From a virus: a stretch of 44,651 nt of DNA. This document shows positions 3,369 through 40,921 of the stretch, one piece after another. Both the position numbers and the translations under genes were made by a program. Location: the IMG/VR virus record IMGVR_UViG_3300025310_000077, positions 1 to 44,651 of that record. The stretch is one strand, 5' to 3'. Below the pieces are notes generated by a model. The model did not search any database. It saw only the letters and a list, made by a program, of their open reading frames with translations, and was not told where the DNA came from. Position 1 is the first letter of the stretch, and each line of letters opens with the position of its first letter.

Positions 3369-3816
3369 TAGTTATCTGATTCAAGATGTTGAATTTCTCA
3401 AGTTCATGGTTTATCTTATCAGCATTCTTGATGAGCTTATCCTTCAATGCCGAATGCTTCTTTTCTCTCTGTATAACTTGTAAGAATGCGTTGTATATGA
3501 TACTTGTGCAGTATGCGAATGCATTCATTTTCTTACCATTCTTAGCCGCATAATTCGGATCAAAAGAGGTAGAATACTTCAAAAGGAATAACTTCGCTTG
3601 AGACTTCATCTCGTCAAGATAAGTGTATTTCTTGAAAGATAACGAGGTAGCATATCTATCAACATGGATGGTAAATAATTCTCCAAGTCGCTCAGAGGCT
3701 TTACCAGACTTCTTATACTTGATAAGCTCCGAAGTATACTCGTCCTTGTCGATATAGTACCTAGACTGATCGGCAACAGGGTTACGCTTACGGATGGTTC
3801 TCTTTTTCTTTTCCAT
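3358..3816 (-). CDS. 55: Late-transcription sigma factor gp55
   Basis: This is a divergent sigma70-family subunit that directs host RNA polymerase to late promoters (TATAAATA) together with the sliding clamp. The 152-residue protein has the conserved helical core of gp55: a basic N-terminus, FTIHVDRYATSLSF, and then NAFAYCTSIIYNAFLQVIQRE (start near residue 97), which corresponds to the AYITQACFNAFVQRIKKE segment of T4 gp55 (sigma region 2). T4 gp55 is 185 residues, so this version is shorter at the C-terminus, where the clamp-binding peptide would lie. The tail here is FNILNQITIDD. The start has AAAGGAG upstream. A near-perfect late promoter at 36180 agrees with its presence. Confidence 0.85.
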   Translation of the reverse strand: MEKKKRTIRKRNPVADQSRYYIDKDEYTSELIKYKKSGKASERLGELFTIHVDRYATSLSFKKYTYLDEMKSQAKLFLLKYSTSFDPNYAAKNGKKMNAFAYCTSIIYNAFLQVIQREKKHSALKDKLIKNADKINHELEKFNILNQITIDD

Positions 3817-5205: not shown

Positions 5206-7947
5206 ATGTATTCATCCATCTATTTTTCGCCGCTTGATTCCGAAGTATACTGCTGGGAATATGAGAATGGTAGGAAGATTCTATCGAAGAATCCAGCCCC
5301 TCTGTTCTTCTATGTCAAAGACACGAATAATAAAGATTCGGAATACAAGACTATCTTTGGCGATCCGGCAAAGCGTGTTGAATTTACTTCTTGGCGCAAG
5401 TACAAAGACGCTATAGAGAGATACCGTGAATGGGGCATACAGACATTCGAATCCGATGTATCGATTGAAACAAAATTCGTCATATCAAACTATCTTGGAA
5501 TGGAACTCAAGGTTCCTAAGTTTGATGTCCATTTCCTTGATATTGAGGTTCACTCGGAAGTCGGATTCCCTCGTCCAGAGGACGCCAACTCTCCCATCAC
5601 CATCATCACAACATGGTCAACCAAGCATGAGAAGTTCTTCATCTTCGCTGAGAAGGACTTTGATGAGTCTTTCATAACCACTGTCGGTGAGAAGTGTGAG
5701 AAATTCATCTTCGATAAAGAAGAGGATATGCTCAAGGAGTATATGGCGTGGGTTCGTAACGAACATCCAGATATCATGTCTGGTTGGAACTCTAACGGAT
5801 ATGACATTCCGTACATCATCAATAGAGCCAGAAAGCTATTCGGTTATACGGAAAACGAAAAAGGCTACACGATGGAAGACGGAGCCGCTGACTTGTCACC
5901 AATCGGCGTTATCCGTAATCGTCGTACACCTATTGATGAATATAACTTTGAAATCAAGTATGAGATAGCTGGAATCAACCTTCTTGACTACATGGAGGTA
6001 TTTCAGAACTACACTTTCTCTGAGCAGGAATCGTGGAAGCTCGGGCACATAGCTCAATTGGAGCTTGGTGAGTCAAAGGTTGAATTCGACGGTTCATTAG
6101 CAGACTTGTATAAAGACTGGCAGAAGTATGTCGAATATAATGTGCAGGACGTTCGTCTTTTGAGAAAGCTTGATGCTAAAAAGAAATTCCTAAATCTTCT
6201 CGTAACTTTTTGTTACGGGTGCAGAGTTCCGTTCGAGCATTATGTCAAGACAACCAAGGTTCTCGACGGGGCGTTCCTTTCGAAGCTCGCAGAAGAAAAG
6301 ATTGTTCTTCCCGATGTCAACCGCAAGATTGTTGAAGAGATGAAGTTGAAGAAGGAGAAGTATCCTGGCGGATTCGTCAAACATCCAGAAGCCGCTCTTC
6401 ATGAGTGGGTATTGTCATTCGACGCCACATCGCTATACCCGTCTATCATGATGGGTTGGAACATAAGCCCTGAAACAAAGATATGCGTTATTGACAGCAA
6501 GCATGTCAAGCCACTCATGAAGTATATGTCAAGAGGCGTTGAGTGTGATGATGAAGTCACCATTCTCAAGCAGCGCATGACTATCAATGAGTTGGGCGAT
6601 CTTATCAAGGATAAGAATTGGTGTCTCGCAGCCAACGGAGCCATCTACAGGACTGATGTTCAGGGTATTATTGGAAGATTCGTAAAGGAATGGTTCAATA
6701 AGCGCAAGGACTACAAGAAGAAGATGTTGAAGGCTAAGGACGCTCACGATGAAGCCAAGGCTTCAGAATATGACGGATTGCAGCATAACTTCAAGATTCT
6801 TATCAACTCCGTTTATGGATATCTTGGAACGCCTCACTCCAGATTCTTCGATTGGGACAACGCTGTAGCCGTTACCATGACGGGTAGAGCCATAACCACA
6901 ACTTGTATTTCGGCAATCGACGGATTCTTCAAGTCTGATGCTTGGATAAACAACAAGAAGTATCGTCTTGGTGAAACTAACAAGCCAATTGACAACACCA
7001 TCATCTACGGAGACACCGACTCGCTTTACATATCATTCGGACGCATACTCAAGTCGTTTGGATATGAATATGAGGGTAAGAATGATGAAGCTGTAAAGAA
7101 TTACATCATATTCGGTGAGGATAAAACAAACGCTGAATTCTACGACAAGCTCTCAAAAGACGAAAGAGAGAAGCTTGAAGAGAATGCTGACTCCATTCAA
7201 AACTTCGTTTCAGACATCATCAACAAGGCTATGAAGTCATTGACGCTTGGGCATTTGAATACTCCTGAGAATCTTATTCACTTCAAGAGAGAATCTGTAG
7301 CGTCCAGAGCTATATTCCTTGAGGCTAAGAAGCATTATGTTATGTGGGTTCTCAATTCGGAAGGCGTCGAGTTGGAAGAGAAGAAGAGACTCAAGGTTGT
7401 CGGTATTGATGTGGTTCGCTCGTCAACGCCGCCGCTCGTCAGAACCGAACTTAAGAGCATCATCAAGAATATTCTCGTCAAGCTTGACAGAGACTATACG
7501 GTTGGTGAGTTGAATAAGATGTATGACAATTTCCTCACGGCAAAGCCGGAAGAAATAGCATTTCCTTCGTCAGTAAAGGATATCAAGAAGTATGTCCAGA
7601 AGTTGAAGGAAGACGGAAAATTCAAGTCAACGCCTATGCATGTCAGAGCGGCTATTCTTTACAACCAGATGTTGGCTGAGAATCCAAATCTGAAGCGTAA
7701 GTATGACATGATATACAATGGTGACAAGATGAAGTATGTCTACACCAAGACTTCAAATGATTGGAAGTATGACATATTCGGATGGAAGGATAAGTGGGTA
7801 TCTGAGCTTGGCGTTGAAGACAACATCAATCGTCGTGAGCAGTTCCACAGAGCGGCTATCAGCCCCATTGAAGACTTCTTCCGCATTCTCAACTGGAGTC
7901 TTCCAGACTTGGACTGCCATGATATGAAGGGCATCTTCAACTGGTAA
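5206..7947 (+). CDS. 43: DNA polymerase gp43 (family B, with 3'-5' exonuclease)
   Basis: This is the replicative polymerase. At 913 residues it is close to T4 gp43 (898). Exonuclease motif I DIEVHSE starts at residue 111 (T4: D112/E114). Exo II is WNSNGYDIPYI near 195, and exo III is NVQDVRLL near 315. The polymerase sites are SFDATSLYPSI (catalytic Asp near 406), the KILINSVYGYLGTP motif B helix, and YGDTDS (Asp603 and Asp605). No intein or frameshift is visible, and the gene is intact. T4 gp43 is regulated by RegA and by self-repression through a leader hairpin; here the leader is too short to judge. Upstream is a clear promoter and downstream an unusual inverted repeat. Confidence 0.98.
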   Translation: MYSSIYFSPLDSEVYCWEYENGRKILSKNPAPLFFYVKDTNNKDSEYKTIFGDPAKRVEFTSWRKYKDAIERYREWGIQTFESDVSIETKFVISNYLGMELKVPKFDVHFLDIEVHSEVGFPRPEDANSPITIITTWSTKHEKFFIFAEKDFDESFITTVGEKCEKFIFDKEEDMLKEYMAWVRNEHPDIMSGWNSNGYDIPYIINRARKLFGYTENEKGYTMEDGAADLSPIGVIRNRRTPIDEYNFEIKYEIAGINLLDYMEVFQNYTFSEQESWKLGHIAQLELGESKVEFDGSLADLYKDWQKYVEYNVQDVRLLRKLDAKKKFLNLLVTFCYGCRVPFEHYVKTTKVLDGAFLSKLAEEKIVLPDVNRKIVEEMKLKKEKYPGGFVKHPEAALHEWVLSFDATSLYPSIMMGWNISPETKICVIDSKHVKPLMKYMSRGVECDDEVTILKQRMTINELGDLIKDKNWCLAANGAIYRTDVQGIIGRFVKEWFNKRKDYKKKMLKAKDAHDEAKASEYDGLQHNFKILINSVYGYLGTPHSRFFDWDNAVAVTMTGRAITTTCISAIDGFFKSDAWINNKKYRLGETNKPIDNTIIYGDTDSLYISFGRILKSFGYEYEGKNDEAVKNYIIFGEDKTNAEFYDKLSKDEREKLEENADSIQNFVSDIINKAMKSLTLGHLNTPENLIHFKRESVASRAIFLEAKKHYVMWVLNSEGVELEEKKRLKVVGIDVVRSSTPPLVRTELKSIIKNILVKLDRDYTVGELNKMYDNFLTAKPEEIAFPSSVKDIKKYVQKLKEDGKFKSTPMHVRAAILYNQMLAENPNLKRKYDMIYNGDKMKYVYTKTSNDWKYDIFGWKDKWVSELGVEDNINRREQFHRAAISPIEDFFRILNWSLPDLDCHDMKGIFNW

Positions 7948-12880: not shown

Positions 12881-13899
12881 AACACTTAGTATTGACAGGC
12901 TGCGCCGGATTCATAGGAATAAACTTACTCGAACATCTTATAGCTGACAGAAAGGACATTCTTTCAAGATATAAGAGTGTTATAAGTGTTGATAAGAAGG
13001 GATATGCTGCTGAGTATAATACATCACACTATTACGACTTAGCAAAGCTATTCGACACCGCTAAGATAAAGTTTGTAGATATAGAATCAGACATAAACTC
13101 AAAGGACTTTCAAACACGAAAAATTCCCCATGAAATTGGTGATACATTTGATATTGTTGATTTGGCTTCATCGTCACATGTTGATAATAGCATAAAGGAT
13201 CCATACAGCCTCTATGAGCAGAATGCTTCGCTTCCAGCGAATATCTGTAAGAAGTTTGGGCTGACTAACATTGACAATTATATTCACATATCAACTGATG
13301 AAGTATATGGTGATATAGACTATGAAGCAGCCAATAACGAAAAGGCATGGTTCCGTTCAACCACACCATTCGCTCCAGGCAACCCCTATTCAGCTTCCAA
13401 GGTGGCTCAAGACGCTCTTCTCATGAGTCTCCAGCATACCTTCGGACTCAACCTGAGAATCATTCGTATGGCTAATCAGTTTGGACCATGGCAACACCCC
13501 GAGAAGATGCTTCCAGCGTCGATTCTACGCAGTTTGGCTGGCGATCCTATCCGAGTGTATGGTGAGGGTAAAAACATGCGCCAATGGACTCCGGTGAAGG
13601 ATACGGTGAAGATAATAGCCAGTATCTTAGATACTCCGAGCGAGTATGGTGCAGTAAGTCATATAGCCGCTCCACAGAAGCTTGATTCGAATATTACTTG
13701 GGTAGAGAAGTGGCGCAGCATCCTATTCAAGAATGGTATAGATTCCTCGTTGAAGTATGTTGAGGACAGAAAAGGACACGATAAAGTTTACGCTCTTGCG
13801 GATTGTGTGAAATGGGGAGCAGATTATCCTTCAATAGAAGCAAGATTTGAAGAAACAATCAAGTGGTATATAGACAATAAAGAGAGGTTCGGAGTATGA
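12877..13899 (+). CDS. NAD-dependent nucleotide-sugar epimerase/dehydratase (RmlB-like SDR)
   Basis: This is an extended short-chain dehydrogenase. The Rossmann motif is TGCAGFIG (7-14). STDEVYG (139-145) contains the T-D-E triad of dTDP-glucose 4,6-dehydratases, and NPYSASK (169-175) gives the YxxxK pair (Tyr171, Lys175). The 340-residue length is normal. It probably makes a 4-keto-6-deoxy sugar nucleotide. The RmlC-RmlD-like fusion at 14666 is the likely next enzyme. The exact substrate cannot be fixed from sequence. Confidence 0.85.
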   Translation: MKHLVLTGCAGFIGINLLEHLIADRKDILSRYKSVISVDKKGYAAEYNTSHYYDLAKLFDTAKIKFVDIESDINSKDFQTRKIPHEIGDTFDIVDLASSSHVDNSIKDPYSLYEQNASLPANICKKFGLTNIDNYIHISTDEVYGDIDYEAANNEKAWFRSTTPFAPGNPYSASKVAQDALLMSLQHTFGLNLRIIRMANQFGPWQHPEKMLPASILRSLAGDPIRVYGEGKNMRQWTPVKDTVKIIASILDTPSEYGAVSHIAAPQKLDSNITWVEKWRSILFKNGIDSSLKYVEDRKGHDKVYALADCVKWGADYPSIEARFEETIKWYIDNKERFGV

Positions 13900-14665: not shown

Positions 14666-16021
14666 ATGTTCACAAAAACCATATCTTATAAAGAAGTAAT
14701 ATCATTTTTCAATGGAAAAGTAAAGATAAGAGAGTTGAAGACTTATTCTGATAACAGGGGGTATGTCTGTGAAACATTCAGAACAGACTCCGATATAACA
14801 CATGACTCTCAAATGTGTTATATAAGCGAAACAAATCCGTATGTTATTAGGGGACCACATGAACATATCTATCAACGGGACGAATTCATATCGTGGAAAA
14901 ACCTTATGTGTTATATGTTCTGTGATCCAAAAACGGGAGAAGTAGCCCACTACACTACAGATCCTACAAAAATAATAAATGTAAGTGTTGAGCCTGGAAT
15001 AACACACGCTTATAGGAACCTTGATAATAAGCCAGCGTATACTCTAAACTTCCCAACCTCCTTGTTCATGGGTAAAGATAAGAAGGAAAAGACAGACGAA
15101 ATCCGCCACGAACCAAAGCTGAAAGATACGAAAGTATATGTTGTTCTCGGAGCGGGTGGACGCCTTGGTAAAGCTATTGTAGATACTCTATTCGACAATA
15201 TGGGCATAGCAAACCATCAAGTCATTCCCGTATACGAGAAATTCCCAAGCTACGATACAACTTATGTTCAGACATTTGTTGATAGAGTCAAGGAAGCCGC
15301 CGCTCTCACTGAATGTAAAGATATTGTCATCATCAACTGCGCTGCTAAAACCAATGTAGCAAAAGCAAGCAAGGTTGACAAGGGACTTGTATGGGCTAAT
15401 ACGGACTTCCCTCTCATTCTCGGCGAGCGCTGCTCACGGGCAGACATCAAGCTCGTTCACTTCAGCACCGACTATGTGTATCAGAAGGTGAAGGAAGGCA
15501 ATGTAAAAGGAAAAATAAGCGATTACGCCAACAGCAAGCAGCTATATGAAAACTCTGTGGAAGAGACGATAAAAGCCCGTGGTAAGGGACAGCGCAACAC
15601 CACCATCATCCGTGTCGCAAATCTTTTCTCTGTCGATAAGAATGACACCATCAACATACTTTATAAGCTCAATGAAAAGGTGAAGACAAACGCTGTTATC
15701 GAACAGGATCCGCTCGTCAAACTCGGTCCTACCGATGTCAAGACGATAGCTGCTTGGCTCTATGAGAATATGAAGAATGGCGAAGTATTCAAGAAGGATA
15801 ATTTCAATCCGAAATTCTATAACCTTGTATCGGGAAGTGTCTACAACATTCCTGAATTGATTGAGAAGCATTACGGTGCTTATAAGAATGTCATAAAGAT
15901 TGAGAGTGACTTGGAGTATTGGTTCGATGAGTTTATGAAGGATGACTCGGTAAATCAAGTCACTTTACCAGATGCCGAAGCTTCAATAAAAGCATATCTT
16001 GACTTGATACGCGGCAAGTAA
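14666..16021 (+). CDS. Bifunctional RmlC-like cupin / RmlD-like reductase
   Basis: Two domains are joined. Residues 1-135 resemble dTDP-4-keto-6-deoxyglucose 3,5-epimerase: NRGYVCETF, then IRGPHEHIYQRDEF with the catalytic-region His, then PGITHAYRNL. Residues 155-451 are an SDR with GAGGRLG (162-168), FSTDYVY and YANSK (287-291), as in dTDP-4-dehydrorhamnose reductases. The two activities are consecutive steps of dTDP-rhamnose-type synthesis and are usually separate proteins. With the RmlB-like enzyme at 12877, three of the four steps are present. The thymidylyltransferase (RmlA) is not obvious. Confidence 0.8.
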   Translation: MFTKTISYKEVISFFNGKVKIRELKTYSDNRGYVCETFRTDSDITHDSQMCYISETNPYVIRGPHEHIYQRDEFISWKNLMCYMFCDPKTGEVAHYTTDPTKIINVSVEPGITHAYRNLDNKPAYTLNFPTSLFMGKDKKEKTDEIRHEPKLKDTKVYVVLGAGGRLGKAIVDTLFDNMGIANHQVIPVYEKFPSYDTTYVQTFVDRVKEAAALTECKDIVIINCAAKTNVAKASKVDKGLVWANTDFPLILGERCSRADIKLVHFSTDYVYQKVKEGNVKGKISDYANSKQLYENSVEETIKARGKGQRNTTIIRVANLFSVDKNDTINILYKLNEKVKTNAVIEQDPLVKLGPTDVKTIAAWLYENMKNGEVFKKDNFNPKFYNLVSGSVYNIPELIEKHYGAYKNVIKIESDLEYWFDEFMKDDSVNQVTLPDAEASIKAYLDLIRGK

Positions 16022-21992: not shown

Positions 21993-23084
21993 ATGAAGAA
22001 AGTATTTGTATCCGGTTGCTTTGATATACTACACGGTGGGCATATAGAGTTCTTTACGCAGGCTAAGAGCCTGGGTGATTACCTCATAGTGTCGTTCGCA
22101 AATCAAGAAGTCTTATTGAAGCATAAGAATAGAAAATCATCCATACCAGACGAGCACAAGAAGCGTCTCATGGAAGCCATATCCGTTATTGATGAGGTTG
22201 TCATCGGTGACTCTCTGGATAGAGAAGGCTTGGACTTTATAGAACACTTCAATCGGCTAAAGCCAGATATATTGGCTGCTACTGAGGACGATAAGTATAA
22301 GGAAGATAAGACTAAGTTATGTGAGGCTTCACCGTGGAATCCGAAGTATGTTGTATTGGAAAAGACACTCAATTTCAACAAGATATCAACCAGCGAGATA
22401 ATAAATTGGATAAAAGCCCCTAAAGAGGTTCCTCTAAGAGTGGACTTCGCTGGAGGGTGGTTGGATGTTCCTAAGTTTAGTATTGCAGGAGCTTCCATAG
22501 TAAACTGCTCCATATCACCGACTGTAAGCATCGGTAAATGGGGATACAACATTGGTGGTGGACTTGGTGGTTCCGCAGCATATGCTATACTCAACGGAAA
22601 GAATGGCGTGACATCCGAGCTTGATCTTGGTGTCGGCTGGCAGGATCCGGCGGTTATAAAAGAGACTGGATTATGCGTTTGGAGAAGCGGTATGAAGCCC
22701 GTCCTGGAAGCGAAATATAATCCAGACTGGCTGAATGGTTTGATGGCTATAAAGTGGAATGGTAATCCTCATAAGACATATGAGTTTGTTGATAATAAGA
22801 GAGACTTCGAAAAGATACGCCAAGCTGCAAACATAGCGAAGGCAGCTTGCTCGCTAAAGAATATAGAAATGCTTATGCATGCTGTTAGAATGTCATACGA
22901 CGTTCAACTTGAAGAGGGTATGGATGAAATTTATTACGATGATAATATATGTGCTGTAAAGTATTGTGGCGGCGGCTTTGGAGGATATGTTCTTTACTTG
23001 TTCAATAGCCAGGAAGCCAGAGAATTGTTTGTTGAAACAAATGGGGCTATAAGAATAGAGCCATACTTGGGAGAAATAAATTGA
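21993..23084 (+). CDS. Bifunctional nucleotidylyltransferase / GHMP-type sugar kinase
   Basis: Residues 1-135 are a HIGH-superfamily nucleotidylyltransferase, with GCFDILHGGH containing His14 and His17, as in the HldE C-terminal domain and glycerol-phosphate cytidylyltransferases. Residues 145-363 are a compact GHMP kinase. Motif 1 is PLRVDFAGGWLDVP (from 147), the ATP loop is GGGLGGSAA (188-196), and motif 3 is CGGGFGGYV (325-333). The pairing recalls heptose or fucose activation (HddA, FKP). The kinase part is about 220 residues, shorter than typical. It overlaps the next gene by 4 nt. Confidence 0.8.
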   Translation: MKKVFVSGCFDILHGGHIEFFTQAKSLGDYLIVSFANQEVLLKHKNRKSSIPDEHKKRLMEAISVIDEVVIGDSLDREGLDFIEHFNRLKPDILAATEDDKYKEDKTKLCEASPWNPKYVVLEKTLNFNKISTSEIINWIKAPKEVPLRVDFAGGWLDVPKFSIAGASIVNCSISPTVSIGKWGYNIGGGLGGSAAYAILNGKNGVTSELDLGVGWQDPAVIKETGLCVWRSGMKPVLEAKYNPDWLNGLMAIKWNGNPHKTYEFVDNKRDFEKIRQAANIAKAACSLKNIEMLMHAVRMSYDVQLEEGMDEIYYDDNICAVKYCGGGFGGYVLYLFNSQEARELFVETNGAIRIEPYLGEIN

Positions 23085-24457
23085 TTCGCCTAGTTATATT
23101 CGATTTAGATGGTGTCCTCGTAGACTCGAAAGAGACTCATTATGAAGCTCTCAATATGGCTCTGTCGGACATCAACCGAAAGTATGTTATAAGCCATGAT
23201 GAGCATATATCCAAGTATGATGGGCTGCCGACGAACAAGAAGCTGGAGATGTTACATAAGGAAAAGGGACTTTCCAAAGATGTCTTTGAGACAGTTTGGA
23301 CTACGAAACAATCGTATACATTCGATGTCATAAACACCAAGGTAAAACAAGACGAAGAGCTAGTAAAGTTATTCAAGGAATTGAAAGCCAGAGATATACA
23401 GATATGGGTGGCTTCTAACTCTATAAGGAAGACTGTCAGACTTTACCTCTTGAGATTGGGCTTGATGGAATTTGTAGATGACTTCATATCAAATGAGGAT
23501 GTCTCAAAACCTAAACCAAACCCTGAGATGTATCTGAAGTGTATGGTTGAGAATTCCGTGGAGCCTAGAGAAACCGTCATAGTTGAGGATTCACAGGTGG
23601 GAATAACCGCCGCTATAAAGTCGGGCGCTCATGTCTTACCAGTCAGAAACGCATCTGACACAAATCGTCAGAGGGTGTTGTCGTATATAGATAAGATAAA
23701 CTCTGTCAAAACATTCAACAAGTGGGAGAGTGCCAATATGAACATTCTTATACCTATGGCTGGTGCTGGAAGTAGATTCGCTTCGGCTGGGTACACCTTC
23801 CCAAAGCCTCTCATAGAAGTTCGTGGTAAGCCTATGATTCAGGTTGTGGTAGAAAATATCAACATAAACGCCACATACACCTACATAGTCAGAACCGAGC
23901 ATCTTGAGAAGTATAACCTCAAGTATCTCCTGAATATGATGACTCCTGGCTGTAACATTGTGGATGTAAACCATCTTACGGAGGGGGCGGCTTGCACTAC
24001 TCTACTGGCTGAGAATTTCATAAACAATGACAATCCACTACTCATAGCCAACTCTGATCAGTTTGTGGAGTGGAACTCGGGAAACTTCATGTATAGCATG
24101 ACATCTGGAAATACCGATGGTGGAATACTGACATTCGAGAATACTCATCCAAAATGGTCGTATGTGAAGACGGATGAGAGTGGGTATGTTACCGAACTCG
24201 CTGAGAAGAAGGTTATATCCAATAAAGCCACTGTTGGAGTCTATTATTGGAACCGTGGTAGTGAATATGTCAAGTATGCAAAGCAAATGATTCAAAAGAA
24301 TATCAGAGTCAACAACGAGTTCTATGTAGCCCCTGTTTATAATGAGGCTATAACAGATGGAAAGAAGATAAAGATATTCGACATTGATAAGATGTGGGGC
24401 ATCGGGACTCCTGAAGACTTGAATTACTTCTTAGAAAACTACAAGGGAAACATATGA
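23081..24457 (+). CDS. Bifunctional HAD phosphatase / sugar-1-phosphate nucleotidyltransferase
   Basis: It starts at TTG (23081), within the TTGA overlap with the previous stop, behind GGGAG. Residues 1-215 are a HAD hydrolase: VIFDLDGVLVDS has the nucleophile Asp8 and Asp10, VASNS is motif II, KPKPNPEMYL carries the motif III Lys, and IVEDSQVGI is motif IV. From Met220, ILIPMAGAGSRFASAGYTFP begins a GT-A type NTP transferase with the signature FPKPLIEVRGKPMI. The ATG at 23738 has GGGAG upstream, so the C-terminal enzyme may also be made alone. With 21993 it covers kinase, phosphatase and nucleotidylyl steps. Confidence 0.82.
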   Translation: MIRLVIFDLDGVLVDSKETHYEALNMALSDINRKYVISHDEHISKYDGLPTNKKLEMLHKEKGLSKDVFETVWTTKQSYTFDVINTKVKQDEELVKLFKELKARDIQIWVASNSIRKTVRLYLLRLGLMEFVDDFISNEDVSKPKPNPEMYLKCMVENSVEPRETVIVEDSQVGITAAIKSGAHVLPVRNASDTNRQRVLSYIDKINSVKTFNKWESANMNILIPMAGAGSRFASAGYTFPKPLIEVRGKPMIQVVVENININATYTYIVRTEHLEKYNLKYLLNMMTPGCNIVDVNHLTEGAACTTLLAENFINNDNPLLIANSDQFVEWNSGNFMYSMTSGNTDGGILTFENTHPKWSYVKTDESGYVTELAEKKVISNKATVGVYYWNRGSEYVKYAKQMIQKNIRVNNEFYVAPVYNEAITDGKKIKIFDIDKMWGIGTPEDLNYFLENYKGNI

Positions 24458-25170
24458 GCAAAATATCCTTCATAAAAGAAAACTTCGCAAAGAATTATAA
24501 GCATGAAGAGGGGATAGCGCCAGATAACAGGCTTGTCCATAATGTATTCAATGGATGTGGTATCCATACAAGAAGTGGCGTCAAGACACTTATAAGAATG
24601 CTGAAGCCTAAGTTTATATTGGAGATAGGCTCATATCACTTCGAGACTGCTAATCAAATGGCTTATACATTTGACGAATTATACGGAAGCGATCATAGCA
24701 TAGGACATATACACTCGTTCGATATCAAGAAGGGTGGCTATGATGGTGTCCTATTCAACCCGGGATCCAGTCGCATAACCTCACACACATGGATACCTCA
24801 GAAGACCGCGTTTGATGATTGGAAGTATACAGATCCCGAAATAACTTCAAAGTGCGACTATGCTAATATAACGAATGAAGAGATATTTGAGAGAAACCTC
24901 AAATACCTAAAAAGCATAACACCTGCGAGTGGCTTTGATATGGTTTATATTGATGGTGATCACTCTTACAAGGGAGCGGCATACGATCTTGAATATTCAC
25001 TCAAGGTTATAAATTCAGAAGCAGTCATTATCATAGACGACATCTGGGATCACCGTTTGCATCAAGTCCGTGACTTCTTCAATGACTTGAAGAATGAAAA
25101 ATGGGACTTCGTTGAATGGAATATGGCGAACCGTGACAAGGTTCAGAATATGGGCGTATTCCTTCCATGA
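24454..25170 (+). CDS. SAM-dependent methyltransferase (Methyltransf_24-like)
   Basis: The 238-residue product is a class I methyltransferase. ILEIGSYHFETA is motif I (SAM-binding loop), and FDMVYIDGDHSYKGAAYDLE is the family's metal/SAM region, followed by IIDDIWDH. Such enzymes in glycan loci O-methylate sugars. It is joined by ATGA overlaps at both ends, so it belongs to the same polycistron. Confidence 0.75.
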   Translation: MSKISFIKENFAKNYKHEEGIAPDNRLVHNVFNGCGIHTRSGVKTLIRMLKPKFILEIGSYHFETANQMAYTFDELYGSDHSIGHIHSFDIKKGGYDGVLFNPGSSRITSHTWIPQKTAFDDWKYTDPEITSKCDYANITNEEIFERNLKYLKSITPASGFDMVYIDGDHSYKGAAYDLEYSLKVINSEAVIIIDDIWDHRLHQVRDFFNDLKNEKWDFVEWNMANRDKVQNMGVFLP

Positions 25171-29300: not shown

Positions 29301-30065
29301 ATGAGGTATATTAGTTCCAGGGAAACGCTTATACGAATTATAGAAAGAATAGAGAACCGCCAGCCCGGAATATATCTAAGATTCGGGGATGGGGATGTCA
29401 ACCTTGCAAACAACACAAGAGAGTTGATGCAGCAAGCTAATGATAAGCTGGCTGCTGAGATGCGGGAAGCGTTTGCTTTGAACGGTGACGGAGTAATGAA
29501 GTGTCTTCCCGTGTATTGTCATAAGTATGGTGCAGTTGAGCCTGGAATGTGCCCAGGAAACCATGAAGCTCCTAATGAGTGGGTTGATGACATTATAAGA
29601 AGAGCCAAGCCGCATTGGGGTGGAGAGATTGACGAGGTATATCCACATGTAGCTTTGTGTTATACGGCTACCGTCGAAGCTCCAGTCGCTAAGAATTTCT
29701 TGAATCGCATGAGAGACACCAACTGCAAGAAGATATTCGTCGGTAATAGAACATGCCCTGAGAGTGTCATTGAAAGAATGTTTGGAAAGTGTCACATCAT
29801 AAAGACTCCTGAAGCTAATTCATATGATGGCGCAGACGCAGCCTGGGAAGAGTTTCAACGAGTCAAACCCGATGAATATACTTTAGCGATATTCGCCATG
29901 GGATGCTCTGGAAGAGCCGTCCAAAAGAGAATATGGAAGAAGTATTCCGACTGCTTTGTATTTGATGTCGGAAGTATAATGGATACTGTTTATGGTAATA
30001 GCCCGACAAGAGCGTGGGTGGAGATAACCAAATTCAACGGAAAGAAGTTTCTGGAGACATTATGA
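29301..30065 (+). CDS. GT-D-type glycosyltransferase (DUF1792-like)
   Basis: The 254-residue product has the marks of the GT-D fold: IYLRFGDGDVNLA with the DGD metal motif near the N-terminus, and FAMGCSGRAVQKRIWKKYSD followed by FDVGSIMD, matching the end of the family (a G-S-x-G-like loop and an Asp-rich strand). These enzymes transfer glucose-type residues onto glycoproteins or O-antigens. It starts 28 nt from the divergent minus-strand gene. Confidence 0.65.
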   Translation: MRYISSRETLIRIIERIENRQPGIYLRFGDGDVNLANNTRELMQQANDKLAAEMREAFALNGDGVMKCLPVYCHKYGAVEPGMCPGNHEAPNEWVDDIIRRAKPHWGGEIDEVYPHVALCYTATVEAPVAKNFLNRMRDTNCKKIFVGNRTCPESVIERMFGKCHIIKTPEANSYDGADAAWEEFQRVKPDEYTLAIFAMGCSGRAVQKRIWKKYSDCFVFDVGSIMDTVYGNSPTRAWVEITKFNGKKFLETL

Positions 30066-30826
30066 TAAGTATAGAGCTTATGGGTGGAGTTGGAAACCTG
30101 TTATTCCAAGTAGCTACTGCTTATGCACATTCCAAGCGGGTAGGTGATGAATGTTACCTTGACTTGAGCAGAGATATAATATCTTGCACTCCACATTACA
30201 ATAACCTATCAGTCTATAAAGACAACATCTTCAGAAACTTCAAGAATCATTCACGGATGCACCATCAGCATAGGCATGAAGAGCCTTCTCACAGATACTC
30301 ACCGATACCAAGAATTCCCAATCTATTCTTGTTCGGATACTTTCAATCGGATAAGTATTTCTCAGATTATGCTGATGAAATAAAGTCTCTAGTTTCTCCT
30401 AAACAGGAAGAGCTAGATTATATAATCGGTAAGTATAAAGATATACTTGATATGGATACGGTGAGTGTCCATGTGCGAAGGGGTGACTATCTCAAATTCA
30501 ACGCTTCGGCTGTTCTCCCTATAGATTACTACAAGAGGGCTTTATCGCTATTCCCGAATAAGAAAGTTGTAGTCTTCAGCGATGATATTCAGTATTGTAA
30601 GAATGAGTTTGGTAGTGATGCTACATACATCACAGGGGAGCGAGACTACATTGACATCTACATAATGTCAAGGTGTAAGAATAACATAATATCAAACTCG
30701 TCTTTCAGTTGGTGGGGTTCGTACCTGAATAACCATCATGACAAGAAGGTAGTGGCTCCTAAGCTATGGAATGGACACTATACTGATAATCCAGACATCT
30801 ATTGCAGTAATTGGATAACAATATGA
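30062..30826 (+). CDS. Alpha-1,2-fucosyltransferase family GT11
   Basis: The start is the ATG at 30062, an ATGA overlap with the previous stop. MGGVGNLLFQVATAYAHSKR is the GT11 N-terminal block, VSVHVRRGDYL is the HxRRGDY motif that binds GDP-sugar, and NSSFSWWGSYLN is motif III. The 254-residue length is slightly short. It implies GDP-fucose or a similar donor. Confidence 0.9.
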   Translation: MISIELMGGVGNLLFQVATAYAHSKRVGDECYLDLSRDIISCTPHYNNLSVYKDNIFRNFKNHSRMHHQHRHEEPSHRYSPIPRIPNLFLFGYFQSDKYFSDYADEIKSLVSPKQEELDYIIGKYKDILDMDTVSVHVRRGDYLKFNASAVLPIDYYKRALSLFPNKKVVVFSDDIQYCKNEFGSDATYITGERDYIDIYIMSRCKNNIISNSSFSWWGSYLNNHHDKKVVAPKLWNGHYTDNPDIYCSNWITI

Positions 30827-31473
30827 AGATATCAATTCTGATGCCTATCTATAACGGAATAGAATTCTTGAATGAGAGTTTGGAGTCCGTGAAGAGTCAG
30901 ACATATAAGGATTGGGAACTTCTCATAGGAGTGAATGGACATAAGAAGAATTCGGATGTCTTCAATATCGCCAATAAACATTCCTCTAATAATATAAAGG
31001 TTCTTGACTATTACAATATAAAAGGAAAGTCAAACACCTTGAATGAGATGCTAAACTGTTGTGCTGATGTCTGCTGCCTGCTAGATGTTGATGATAAGTG
31101 GCATCCAGAAAAATTGAGCCGACAGGTAGAGTATATATCATCATATGATGTTGTCGGAACGAGATGTCAATACTTTGGAGACAGGAATGATCACCCCGAT
31201 ATCCCAACAGGGCATATAGACAGAGGCATATTCATGTCTTTCAACCCGATTATAAACTCTTCGTCAATGTTCTATAAAAAGGACGCCTATTGGGATCCGG
31301 GGCTATCAGTTGAAGACTATGACATGTGGCTGAGATTGAATAAAGAGGGAAAGCGTTTCTTCAACCATCCCGACATATTGACTTATCACAGAATTCATAA
31401 TAATAGTTATTTCAATACTCGTAATCATGATCAAGAAATAAACCAAACCTTAAACCGCTGGAGAATAACATGA
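30823..31473 (+). CDS. Glycosyltransferase family 2
   Basis: The start is the ATG at 30823, an ATGA overlap. KISILMPIYNGIEFLNESLE is the classical GT2 first strand, CCLLDVDDKWHPEKL contains the DxD motif, and SVEDYDMWLRL holds the catalytic ED. The 216-residue product lacks any membrane segment, so it acts in the cytoplasm. Confidence 0.9.
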   Translation: MKISILMPIYNGIEFLNESLESVKSQTYKDWELLIGVNGHKKNSDVFNIANKHSSNNIKVLDYYNIKGKSNTLNEMLNCCADVCCLLDVDDKWHPEKLSRQVEYISSYDVVGTRCQYFGDRNDHPDIPTGHIDRGIFMSFNPIINSSSMFYKKDAYWDPGLSVEDYDMWLRLNKEGKRFFNHPDILTYHRIHNNSYFNTRNHDQEINQTLNRWRIT

Positions 31474-32168
31474 GAATAGGATTCCTTATAGTAGCTACGA
31501 ATAAGTATATACGATTCGTACAACCGCTTTTAGATTCGATGCGAAAGCATTTGAGAATACCTGGGGCAGATGTTACGGTGTTTGTGTTTACGGATCAGCC
31601 AACCGTTCCAGAGGGCTGCATACGAATACAGCAGGAGCATAAGCCGTTCCCTTATCCAACTCTCATGCGCTACCACATGTTCTATAAGAACCGTAGTCAC
31701 TACGAGCATTATGACTACTTGTATTACCTTGATGCAGACATGCTCTTCCTTGACTCGGTTGGAAGTGAAATACTCGCAGATAGACTCGGAGTTCTTCACC
31801 CAGGCTTCTTCAAGAAGACAAGAGCAGACTTCACATATGAGCATCGTCAGGAATCACTGGCTTATGTGGCTCCACATGAAGGAAAGAATTACTTCTGCGG
31901 TGGATTCAATGGTGGAAAGGCACCAATATACCTTGAGATGAGTCGGGTTATATCGGAGAGAGTCGATAAGGATCATGAGAAGGGAATTGAAGCTCTGTGG
32001 CACGACGAAAGCCATCTCAATAGATATTATATCGACAATCAACCAACAGTTATTTTGAGTCCGTCATACTGCTATCCTGGTGACGGGCTGGCTCACGTTC
32101 TTGGATTGTCTGGACTTCCTAAGAAGATTCATGCCATAGACAAGAACCATGACGAAGTTAGAAACTAG
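31470..32168 (+). CDS. Glycosyltransferase family 6 (ABO-type alpha-1,3-Gal/GalNAc transferase)
   Basis: The product carries GT6 hallmarks: FPYPTLMRYHMFY (60-72), YYLDADMLF (86-93, the metal site), GVLHPGFF (107-114), FCGGFNGG (142-149) and HDESHLNRY (178-186, with Glu180 as the family's conserved acid). Vertebrate members use DxD; many bacterial members have NxN. This phage protein has DAD, so it is probably metal-dependent. It converges on the GT11 gene at 32165, and the two stop codons overlap. Confidence 0.9.
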   Translation: MRIGFLIVATNKYIRFVQPLLDSMRKHLRIPGADVTVFVFTDQPTVPEGCIRIQQEHKPFPYPTLMRYHMFYKNRSHYEHYDYLYYLDADMLFLDSVGSEILADRLGVLHPGFFKKTRADFTYEHRQESLAYVAPHEGKNYFCGGFNGGKAPIYLEMSRVISERVDKDHEKGIEALWHDESHLNRYYIDNQPTVILSPSYCYPGDGLAHVLGLSGLPKKIHAIDKNHDEVRN

Positions 32169-32911
32169 ATAATAATCCAATTAGGCGGATATATATCGTT
32201 GTTTTTGACGCCGAAGCTAGGCGCAAACCAAAGCTTCGGCGCAATTACTTTATTACCTGGGCGCTGATTGAGGTATGCTGCCCACCATGAGAATGTTGAG
32301 TTACAAATAATGTTATGGTTAGACAGCATCATGCATGCAAAGTCATCAATCATTCTTCCTTGGTGGAAATGAACGTTAGGGAGCCAACTTAAATACCTTC
32401 TAGCGGCGTTTGCGTCATCTGAGAATACTATAAACTTATTGTTTCCTGACAACGATAACGCCTTCTTGTAGAAAGTATCGTCTGGACGTGGATACTGGTG
32501 TCGTATTCCTTCATAATCCCCGTAGCGAGCGTGTATAGCTGTATACTCGTGTATGTTTTGAATTATGTTGACGGGAACTTTTATTCGGAACCAATTCAAA
32601 ACATCCTGTCTGTCAAAATACTTATAAGTTTGGAAATACCCCCAGCCAGCTATATCGGTGTTGTCTTGTATATTCTCAGTCTCTGGGTTATACCCTATAT
32701 TATGGTACGGCTCTTGATATGAATGAGCCATCTGCCCTTCAGGGACAAAGCGTCGATTGGGATCGCTCAAATCAAATATATCGTCACCTTCCCACTTCCT
32801 TAGACAATATGTGGTATTGAGCTTATTAGCTTTAGATCTTATAAATGCGTATTGGAACATCTTGTTTCCAAACCGCGCGTCCCACAATCCGAATTGACTG
32901 AATGTAAGCAT
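32165..32911 (-). CDS. Second GT11-like fucosyltransferase
   Basis: The 248-residue product has RFGNKMFQYAFIRSKANKL (GT11 N-terminal block), AIHARYGDYEGI (HxRxGDY with Tyr in place of the second Arg), IVFSDDANAARRYL and CNSTFSWWAAYLNQ (motif III). It is only distantly similar to the protein at 30062, so the two are probably not a recent duplication. It is the last gene of the minus-strand transferase block. Confidence 0.88.
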   Translation of the reverse strand: MLTFSQFGLWDARFGNKMFQYAFIRSKANKLNTTYCLRKWEGDDIFDLSDPNRRFVPEGQMAHSYQEPYHNIGYNPETENIQDNTDIAGWGYFQTYKYFDRQDVLNWFRIKVPVNIIQNIHEYTAIHARYGDYEGIRHQYPRPDDTFYKKALSLSGNNKFIVFSDDANAARRYLSWLPNVHFHQGRMIDDFACMMLSNHNIICNSTFSWWAAYLNQRPGNKVIAPKLWFAPSFGVKNNDIYPPNWIII

Positions 32912-37702: not shown

Positions 37703-40700
37703 ATGCCAAGAGAAGGAATAGGCAGATTTGCCGGAAAAAATGAATTCAGTGATGTCGAGTTCTTGGAGATATTCAAGGAGATTCTTCCTCATGTCCAGAG
37801 TGGTGAAATTGACTTGGACAGTATAAAGAACATTGATATGGTTGAGAAGATGGACTCATCATTCGTCCACTTCGGTATTAATCCAGCCGGTAAGTTTTTC
37901 ATGGAGTCTTCAAACTCTGGCGAAGTAACTGCTGATGATTATAAGCAGCGTTTTAGTCACACCTTCATGTCTGACTACAAGGCAGCTTTCGCCTCTCTTC
38001 TTGAGAATAAGCTATTCCAGTCAACCCTCATGAAGATATTCAAGAAGGTTGGAGCCGTTCGCTACGATGCTGAGTTGTTCCCCGTTCTCACCCATACTGG
38101 TGACGAGTCCGGCTACATAACTTTCGTAGCTACTAAGTATGACAAAGCTAAGTTTGGAACCAAGGGGGCATTCGTTGTATTCAAGTCATGGATAAAGGAT
38201 GAAAACGCTCTGTGGACTCGTCCGAATCCTAAGAAGAATATAGCCCTCATCGAAGCTATAGAAAACGCAGATTCCGTCGAGTGGCGTATCTACACCAATG
38301 AAAAACATGCGAAGCTTTCAGGCGTTGTTCAGCTAAAGGCTATCAATGTCGATAAGATGCTCGCATCGCCAGAAGCCATTGACGATGCTATAGAAGTTCT
38401 CAAGTCCCGTGGAAACACCACCATCAAGGCTCACTTGAAGAATGTTATCGCTGACTTGAAGGAGAAGCTACAGGGCGTTCTCGACAAGTATGCTGAAGAG
38501 ACTTCCTCCATATTCAGTAAGCCAGATTCACCTTCGCCCATCGAAGGTGTTGTTCTCCGCATCAAGAAGGCTAATGGAGACATATTCGAAATCAAGGGAA
38601 CCTCAAACGCATTCGACACTCTCAAGAAGCAGACATGGGCTACCCGTAGCAGTCTTGCAGAGTTAGAAGCCGTAACCGAGGGTTCATTCCTCAAGGACGC
38701 TCTTGGCTTGAAGACAGCCCAGGCTGCCGCTCTCAACAGAGCCATCAAGGAGTTTGGCGCTAAGTTCACCAGCAAGGAAAAGAATCCAGAGAAGCGTGAG
38801 CATGAATTCATTTTGAAGCTGTTTGACGAGATGCGTAACAAGGACGCCATGGTTCCACCAGAAGAAACCAAGAAGCGTGTCAATCAGATATTCGAAGTCG
38901 CTAAGAATCAGCTATCAGTCATCGTTGATGAATTCAAGTCGCAAAAGATTGATCCTGACAGCAAGCGCAAGTCGCTCGAATCCCTCAAGGCTATCATTGA
39001 GAAGTTCGATACCATTGAGAAGACTATCAATACTGATATGCCTGATGAAGCTTTCCAGTTGTATATCTTCAAGTTCATGTTGGATCGTCGTCTCAAGCAG
39101 TATGCTGGACAACACATGAATGCTGCCGAGCAGGACTACAGCAAGTTCTATGAAGGCGTAACTCCAGTCATTATCTGGAACGGAAGAGCGCAGCCTTGGC
39201 ACCGTGGACACGACGCCATGATTCAGTTGGCTAAGAAGAAGCTCGAAGAGTTGGGTGCAGAGAAGATATTGATTCTCATCGTCAAGGGTGGAAAGACTTC
39301 AATGAACAAGGAAGAGAATCCTTTGACTGAGAAGGATCAGAAGGCTCTCGTAGAAGCGATATATGCGGGGGACGATAGCGTTGTTGTATCTGACACCCCG
39401 CTCACAAACGGAAGCTTGTTCGCCATCATACAGAAGCTTGGTGAGATGAAGGCTTATATGGTTGGTTGGCTCGCTGGAAACGACAGAATAGAAGATTACA
39501 AGAAGCTATTGGGCAGCTTCAACGCTTCGGTATGGCTGAAGGATCACGCCAGCCTCCCAATCAAGGTAAACGCTAAAGGTGTAGCCGATGTTCAGATGAT
39601 AGAGACTCCAAGAGTCATGAGTGGAACCGCAGCTCGTGAATCTGCTAAGACTTCCGACTTCAAGACATGGCTGGCTAATGTAGCTCCACCACACTCACAG
39701 AATAACAAGGAAGCTGTTGGAATCTATAAGCAGATATACCAGTTACTCAACAGCATGAAGGCTGAGTCACTTCTTCGTGACATGATTCGTAAGAAGTTTA
39801 CGGAGAGTGTTGTATTGAATGAGCTTCACCCCGATGCTCCTCACATGGCTAATAAAATGCTGGATCGTATAGAGAAGCATATAGAAGAATATAATAATTC
39901 CCCCGAAGATAAAAAGAAAGATGCTTTGGAAAGGGTAAAGAAGTCTATCGGTCCTATAGAGACTGGTGTTAATTCTCCAGAATTCGAAAAACTTCCGGAC
40001 GATATAAAAAATAGAGCTAAGGAAATTCTTCAAAAAGTAAAGGAAATAAAATCATCAGCATCTTCAAATGCCGGGGATAAGATATCCGGTCCCGAAGCTG
40101 CTAAGAATATTGGAACCGATCGGAAGCCTTCGAACCTCCCATCAACGGTTCCCACAACGAAGCCGGAAGCGGTAGATAAGAAGAAGGAATTTGAAGCGTA
40201 TGTAAAGAAGATACCAAAGTATGCAGCAGCTTCGGATCCTGAGAGACTGAAAAAATTCTTATACGGATCATTAGGAGCATTGTCTGGAGCATTGGTGTGG
40301 GCAATGAAGACTGAGAATGAAAAGGGTGGCTCCGCTGCTGATGTATTCTCCGGCAAGGTTTCCGAAAAATGGACAGCTATACGGGATAAAATAAAGAAGG
40401 GTAAAGTAGCTGCCGATGAGATAAATCAGATGATAAAGTCCGCTGCTGATGATATGGGTGAGAACATGCAATCATATCTTGAGCTTAAAGAGTCTGCGAT
40501 GGATATTATGAATAAGTATAATCTTGGAGACAAGTTTGAGCAGTATGCCAATCAGAGAAGAATATCTGCTGCTAGACATGACAGCGGCAGTAAGATGCAG
40601 AGGGGGTTGGATGAAACAAAATATATATTCTTGTTGAATCACATTAGAATATTTGCTTCTGTAGAAGGTTTGGATGAGAATATAAAAGGTGGATTGAAGA

Positions 40701-40921
40701 ACATTATGGCTAAATATAAAGGAAAACCATCAGATGCTAAAAAAGCTATTACTGAGATAATTGACTCTCTTGGAAAAATGAATTTACCATATGATGTTAT
40801 TAGACGAGCCTTGGATAATAACCCAGGTATGGCTCCAAATGAACTAAAGAGCATAATAGAAAAGGCGATTTCCGATAGTAAGAATACTAAGACACCACCA
40901 AACACCAAACCAACCCCATAA
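37703..40921 (+). CDS. Large multidomain nucleotidyltransferase: ligase-type plus HIGH-type (NMNAT-like)
   Basis: In 1072 residues I see three parts. Residues 1-310 resemble the covalent nucleotidyltransferase (ligase/capping) fold: KMDSSF with Lys49 (motif I), FFMES (III), EGVVLRIK with Glu281 (IV) and FEIKG with Lys298 (V). Around 485-680 is a HIGH-type nucleotidylyltransferase, with WNGRAQPWHRGH giving His500 and His503 and resembling the GRFQPxHxGH of NMN adenylyltransferases. From 685 (MKAESLLRDMIRKKF...VVLNELHP) a leader-like segment starts a long helical tail, as though a second internal head protein were fused on. The ATG at 39755 is in frame. The gene starts 3 nt after 36218's stop. 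Confidence 0.65.
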   Translation: MPREGIGRFAGKNEFSDVEFLEIFKEILPHVQSGEIDLDSIKNIDMVEKMDSSFVHFGINPAGKFFMESSNSGEVTADDYKQRFSHTFMSDYKAAFASLLENKLFQSTLMKIFKKVGAVRYDAELFPVLTHTGDESGYITFVATKYDKAKFGTKGAFVVFKSWIKDENALWTRPNPKKNIALIEAIENADSVEWRIYTNEKHAKLSGVVQLKAINVDKMLASPEAIDDAIEVLKSRGNTTIKAHLKNVIADLKEKLQGVLDKYAEETSSIFSKPDSPSPIEGVVLRIKKANGDIFEIKGTSNAFDTLKKQTWATRSSLAELEAVTEGSFLKDALGLKTAQAAALNRAIKEFGAKFTSKEKNPEKREHEFILKLFDEMRNKDAMVPPEETKKRVNQIFEVAKNQLSVIVDEFKSQKIDPDSKRKSLESLKAIIEKFDTIEKTINTDMPDEAFQLYIFKFMLDRRLKQYAGQHMNAAEQDYSKFYEGVTPVIIWNGRAQPWHRGHDAMIQLAKKKLEELGAEKILILIVKGGKTSMNKEENPLTEKDQKALVEAIYAGDDSVVVSDTPLTNGSLFAIIQKLGEMKAYMVGWLAGNDRIEDYKKLLGSFNASVWLKDHASLPIKVNAKGVADVQMIETPRVMSGTAARESAKTSDFKTWLANVAPPHSQNNKEAVGIYKQIYQLLNSMKAESLLRDMIRKKFTESVVLNELHPDAPHMANKMLDRIEKHIEEYNNSPEDKKKDALERVKKSIGPIETGVNSPEFEKLPDDIKNRAKEILQKVKEIKSSASSNAGDKISGPEAAKNIGTDRKPSNLPSTVPTTKPEAVDKKKEFEAYVKKIPKYAAASDPERLKKFLYGSLGALSGALVWAMKTENEKGGSAADVFSGKVSEKWTAIRDKIKKGKVAADEINQMIKSAADDMGENMQSYLELKESAMDIMNKYNLGDKFEQYANQRRISAARHDSGSKMQRGLDETKYIFLLNHIRIFASVEGLDENIKGGLKNIMAKYKGKPSDAKKAITEIIDSLGKMNLPYDVIRRALDNNPGMAPNELKSIIEKAISDSKNTKTPPNTKPTP

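Follow-up and report, generated by a model that had tools for sequence, protein, structure and literature searches.

ORF1, the first of two overlapping fused genes in the virus record analysed here, is the phage-borne representative of a bacterial enzyme family recognised only recently, and sequence comparison suggests that, on balance, it activates L-fucose or a close relative of this sugar. The IMG/VR record comprises 44,651 bases (this whole stretch is called the window below) and carries genes for a DNA polymerase, a sliding clamp, a clamp loader and a primase in its left part; it therefore derives from a large phage. The relevant features are as follows.

21993..23084, + strand: ORF1, a cytidylyltransferase-like domain (residues 1–140) joined to a miniature GHMP-kinase-fold domain (142–363), assigned by Pfam, an AlphaFold2 model, fold comparison and the relative Amuc_1591
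21993..22412, + strand: nucleotidylyltransferase domain of ORF1 (CTP_transf_like PF01467 at residues 6–137, 1.7e-12) with an HxGH-type motif (H14 and H17, present in 66/66 sequences)
22416..23081, + strand: miniature GHMP-kinase domain of ORF1, with fucokinase-type R149, W156, D158, E209, G215, Q217 and D218 and a P-loop-like GxGGS at 190–194 (model and alignment)
23081..24457, + strand: ORF2, a HAD domain of beta-phosphoglucomutase type (residues 1–199) joined to a GT-A-like nucleotidyltransferase (220–458), assigned by Pfam, NCBIfam, PHROG and solved relatives
24454..25170, + strand: methyltransferase after ORF2 (PF13578, 6.5e-10); a similar-sized gene follows ORF2 in cyanophages
30056..30826, + strand: GT11 gene (alpha-1,2-fucosyltransferase family; PF01531, 5.6e-29), a possible user of activated fucose
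32165..32911, − strand: second GT11 gene (PF01531, 3.3e-20)

Both frames, encoding 363 and 458 amino acids, were confirmed as a sequence-only reading of this DNA had described them, with the four bases TTGA shared by the ORF1 stop and the ORF2 start. The TTG start of ORF2 is backed by the related record L006, because the ORF2 counterpart there has an ATG at the matching point, just past the stop of the first gene. The four domains named in that reading were all recovered, three by Pfam matches and the GHMP domain by fold alignment of a model; its interpretation stood as far as the four domains and two separate products are concerned and failed in the proposed heptose route.

Architecture and distribution of the ORF1 family

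The phage relatives of ORF1 are 47–67% identical to it, and a scan of bacterial genomes confirmed at least 252 places with family members. In nearly all of the 80 bacterial places kept, the gene product is again this fusion, about 360 residues long. The hosts include Verrucomicrobiota, Patescibacteria, Planctomycetota, Myxococcota and Bacteroidota as well as other groups, and 16/16 genomes sampled from the genus to which A. glycaniphila belongs have a member. Because it is conserved over its full length in phages, at 60–67% identity, and at more than 250 bacterial loci, ORF1 is not a chance frame. The patterns WIKAPKEV and RVDFAGGW served to select the bacterial rows of the alignment, and other patterns the phage rows. 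In a tree, ORF1 of the window groups with the copies of records L011 and L006 (support 99/95 and 100/99), bacterial rows interrupt the phage rows, and the well-supported branches require a minimum of two changes between phages and the Patescibacteria group. No report of an ORF1-type fusion in phages was found in the open-licence literature. Partial forms were also seen. A free-standing miniature GHMP protein of 227 amino acids without the cytidylyltransferase half is encoded at 3752–4435 of L022, where it overlaps an upstream ABC-transporter-like gene; in the Nomurabacteria contig L020 the fusion is immediately followed by a separate small cytidylyltransferase-like gene (6755–7219); and in many of the genomes G010–G022, from the A. 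glycaniphila genus, a second cytidylyltransferase-like stretch occurs about 100 bases past the fusion gene, in some cases with an in-frame stop.

The Pfam GHMP profile matched neither ORF1 nor any of the 66 family members, NCBIfam returned only a weak fucokinase match for this part of ORF1, and a BFVD search with ORF1 gave matches mainly on the cytidylyltransferase half. The AlphaFold2 model built from 66 sequences is confident (pLDDT 94.5) and supersedes a poor one built from three sequences (pLDDT 61). Its residues 142–360 align to GHMP kinases at Z 20–21.6 over 205–218 residues; therefore, the GHMP assignment made from the letters alone was right despite the absent Pfam match. The Z values for mevalonate kinase (21.6), the heptokinase WcbL (21.3), galactokinase (20.8) and the fucokinase FKP (20.2) are too similar to tell fucokinase apart from the mevalonate, heptose and galactose kinases and thus do not discriminate the substrate.

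The GHMP motifs are kept in ORF1, namely the P-loop-like GxGGS at 190–194, E209, D218 and the third motif GGGxGG at 326–331. The distance from the end of the first motif to the P-loop is 15 or 16 residues in 66/66 rows, whereas the matching points of FKP, positions 619 and 712, are about 93 residues apart. This stretch of FKP contains Asp644, Met645, Pro666 and Ile669, which surround the adenine in a published model (PMC11982464). Judged by this sequence spacing, each of the 66 members compared appears to lack the approximately 78 residues holding the modelled adenine pocket of FKP. The reduced size is the likely reason why Pfam GHMP models miss the family. Because this segment is missing, the kinase activity of the GHMP domain is not assured. 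A tentative possibility is that the domain is a reduced GHMP kinase that works without the usual adenine pocket, through another phosphoryl donor or by borrowing the nucleotide site of the transferase, and that the phage version serves viral fucose scavenging that feeds viral fucosyltransferases. It is rather unlikely that the domain is no longer a kinase and only binds fucose or fucose-1-phosphate to present it to the nucleotidylyltransferase domain: the loss of the segment in 66/66 members would suit such a role, as would the name nucleotidyltransferase given to Amuc_1591 by the Akkermansia authors (PMC13313206), but GxGGS, the catalytic carboxylates E209 and D218 and the third-motif glycines are invariant, and a mere binder would not need them.

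The N-terminal profile scored best against ethanolamine-phosphate (3.7e-23) and glycerol-3-phosphate (1.8e-16) cytidylyltransferases, with 3elb and 1coz as the best-scoring solved structures, and the domain fits the RfaE domain II (8.3e-15) and TagD (9.4e-15) models equally. A cytidylyltransferase-like fold is a poor predictor of substrate. Profiles pointing to unrelated substrates such as glycerol phosphate or choline had been named in the sequence-only reading as evidence against its sugar-nucleotide assignment, and on this point the outcome is ambiguous, with the best scores going to the ethanolamine-phosphate and glycerol-3-phosphate enzymes. Taken at face value, these scores would have ORF1 make a CDP-polyol or a compound resembling CDP-ethanolamine and would give its GHMP domain a small alcohol as substrate. 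This is improbable in view of the FKP-type sugar-binding set largely kept in the kinase domain, the D-arabinose and L-fucose genetics of Amuc_1591 (PMC13313206), and the fucI, gmd and fcl neighbours, all of which are described below.

Evidence on the substrate of ORF1

FKP, the L-fucokinase/GDP-fucose pyrophosphorylase of Bacteroides fragilis (9iip, 9iit), resembles ORF1 in carrying a kinase and a nucleotidylyltransferase in one chain; it differs in that its nucleotidylyltransferase is an unrelated pyrophosphorylase, whereas that of ORF1 is cytidylyltransferase-like, and in having, ahead of its P-loop, the approximately 78 residues that the ORF1 kinase lacks. It contacts fucose-1-phosphate via R592, W599, D601, T602, G759, Q761 and D762, and its E751A and D762A variants are inactive (PMC11982464). 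This sugar-binding and catalytic set is matched in ORF1 by R149, W156, D158, G215, Q217, D218 and E209, all invariant in 66/66 sequences, with E209 matched to E751 by spacing. The one exception is T602, which is replaced by V159, itself invariant in the 66 rows. The invariance of R149 to W156 in bacterial rows is partly built in by the RVDFAGGW selection; D158 to D218 lie outside both patterns. The first motif, R-x-D-x-AGGW-x-D (VDFAGGW in ORF1), and the GWQD motif are of the fucokinase type.

A bacterial counterpart with genetic data is Amuc_1591 of Akkermansia muciniphila, which has the same two domains in the same order and was termed a putative fucose-nucleotidyltransferase in 2026. In that study (PMC13313206), all 12 spontaneous D-arabinose-resistant mutants were changed in Amuc_1591, the substituted positions being V176 and G326, and L-fucose relieved the toxicity and restored growth; the link to L-fucose and D-arabinose thus comes from suppressor genetics and modelling. 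The A. glycaniphila copy, a likely orthologue, carries the same residues, V176 and G326, and it was through this copy that the two positions were mapped onto V178 and G328 of ORF1, which are invariant in 66/66 members. It adjoins murJ, as does Amuc_1591 (PMC13313206), and its C-terminal domain is 54% identical to that of ORF1. ORF1 differs from Amuc_1591 in being phage-borne, translationally linked to a HAD–nucleotidyltransferase fusion and located near GT11 genes.

The neighbours of most bacterial family members are unrelated. The L-fucose isomerase gene fucI lies beside or near the copies in L069 and L084 (about 1020 bits), the GDP-mannose dehydratase gene gmd beside or near those in L023, L051, L055 and L063, and a GDP-L-fucose synthase gene beside or near that in L023.

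A route to NDP-heptose of the HddA-GmhB-HddC or HldE kind, in which the kinase and nucleotidylyltransferase of ORF1 would cooperate with the phosphatase and nucleotidylyltransferase of ORF2, had been proposed from the sequence alone and is now very improbable. It draws on the equal scores for RfaE domain II and TagD and on the closeness of the ORF1 fold to WcbL. However, the heptokinases 3k85, 4usk and 4n3o have RLGLAGGG at the first motif, with GGG versus the GGW of fucokinases, and the heptokinase-type LGLAGGG is absent from ORF1, which has VDFAGGW instead. The HAD domain of ORF2 is not of the GmhB type: the GmhB model TIGR00213 gave no match in the record at E values up to 10 and matched 13/14 control genomes. 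As had been noted earlier, a GmhA isomerase is not seen; no SIS_2 domain was found in the 44,651-base record, which may be a fragment. The two fusions, moreover, also occur separately. HldE, a heptose kinase/adenylyltransferase, likewise joins a cytidylyltransferase-like nucleotidylyltransferase to a sugar kinase, but ORF1 scores only 43 bits with the full HldE model (cut-off 521), and the HldE kinase is of the PfkB type and precedes the transferase in the chain. Fucose-type substrates, which had also been listed for assay, were a better lead than heptose.

From the observed domains, ORF1 fold, residue conservation, neighbours and separate occurrence of the fusions, a possible mechanism can be proposed in which ORF1 is the phage version of a two-function bacterial enzyme and activates L-fucose or a sugar of closely related stereochemistry. 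C1 of the sugar would be phosphorylated by the miniature GHMP domain, after which nucleotide transfer by the HxGH-type domain could yield a putative NDP-fucose. The phage GT11 fucosyltransferases might use this product on a phage-made or phage-modified glycan. Known fucosyltransferases use GDP-fucose, whereas the N-terminal domain of ORF1 resembles CTP enzymes.

ORF2 and its relation to ORF1

ORF2 matches HAD_2 (PF13419, 1.8e-30) and NTP_transferase (PF00483, 1.6e-13) in Pfam, and its HAD part matches TIGR02009 in NCBIfam (1.1e-28). The closest solved relatives of this part are beta-phosphoglucomutases, although its 85 bits against TIGR01990 (cut-off 189) fall below the curated beta-phosphoglucomutase score and indicate a related subfamily only. 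Six phage copies all have D8, D10, H20, K145, E169 and D170, a pattern that would fit an active enzyme, either a phosphatase or a mutase. The transferase half is closest to the uncharacterised pyrophosphorylase 4evw and also matches PHROG 3980, of unknown function. ORF2 may be a separate two-step activator of another sugar or a polyol, acting as a phosphosugar phosphatase or mutase and then in nucleotidylyl transfer.

Full-length relatives of ORF2 (57–60% identity) occur in the Synechococcus phages DSL-LC03, S-PRM1 and S-CAM9, with a similar-sized gene after them at the loci read and GT11 in the records tested. These phages differ from the window in having no full-length match to ORF1. The gene just 5' of ORF2 in cyanophages was initially taken for a free miniature kinase and encodes an unrelated protein. 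ORF2 could belong to a glycosylation cassette that also occurs in cyanophages.

Overlapping translation in the window, adjacency in L006 and joint presence in L011, where the two genes lie two genes apart, would be expected if ORF1 and ORF2 formed a single pathway to one product. Such a pathway is nevertheless unlikely. Full-length ORF2 occurs without full-length ORF1 in Synechococcus phages, and ORF1 is present and ORF2 absent in record G001; because each is found without the other, they do not form one obligate pathway. ORF1 adjoins structural genes in L013, L016 and L018. The identity between the window and L006 is 87% for ORF2 and 64% for ORF1, which suggests different histories. Two products are therefore probable, and the earlier guess to that effect gains support from the occurrence of the fusions apart.

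Glycosyltransferases and fucose supply

Together, the two fusions are likely to provide precursors for glycan synthesis by other genes of the phage. Two GT11 genes are present in the window and two in the L006 record. A GT6 gene (31470–32168; PF03414, 1.3e-46), of the blood group A/B transferase family, lies between the two GT11 genes of the window, and a fucosylated, blood-group-like structure might be the product of this GT11-GT6-GT11 arrangement. The fragmentary ORF1-bearing records G001, G025, G028 and G031 showed no GT11, cyanophages have GT11 without ORF1, and no coupling of the two was found across the phages tested; given this uneven distribution, the link between them is only suggestive. 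The gmd model gave only weak matches in the window (13150–13449, below the cut-off), and the lack of a convincing GDP-mannose dehydratase in this record, which may be a fragment, agrees with fucose salvage. A search for O-FucT matched in no control and is hence uninformative.

The cyanophage S-SCSM1 is reported to carry fucosyltransferases and genes for making GDP-fucose de novo (PMC9602691), and fucose salvage would be a further route that phages may bring. The analysis thus offers a testable function for a gene that is half-invisible to Pfam and recurrent in several phage lineages, and it raises the enzymological question of how a GHMP kinase works without the adenine-pocket segment, together with that of the NTP accepted by the fused transferase.

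Two other genes of the window carry related domains. A 1072-residue protein (37703–40921) has a cytidyltransferase match to PHROG 395 at residues 489–688, a further nucleotidylyltransferase-like domain, and the gene at 14666–16021 encodes a cupin-like Polysacc_synt_C domain fused to an RmlD-type reductase.
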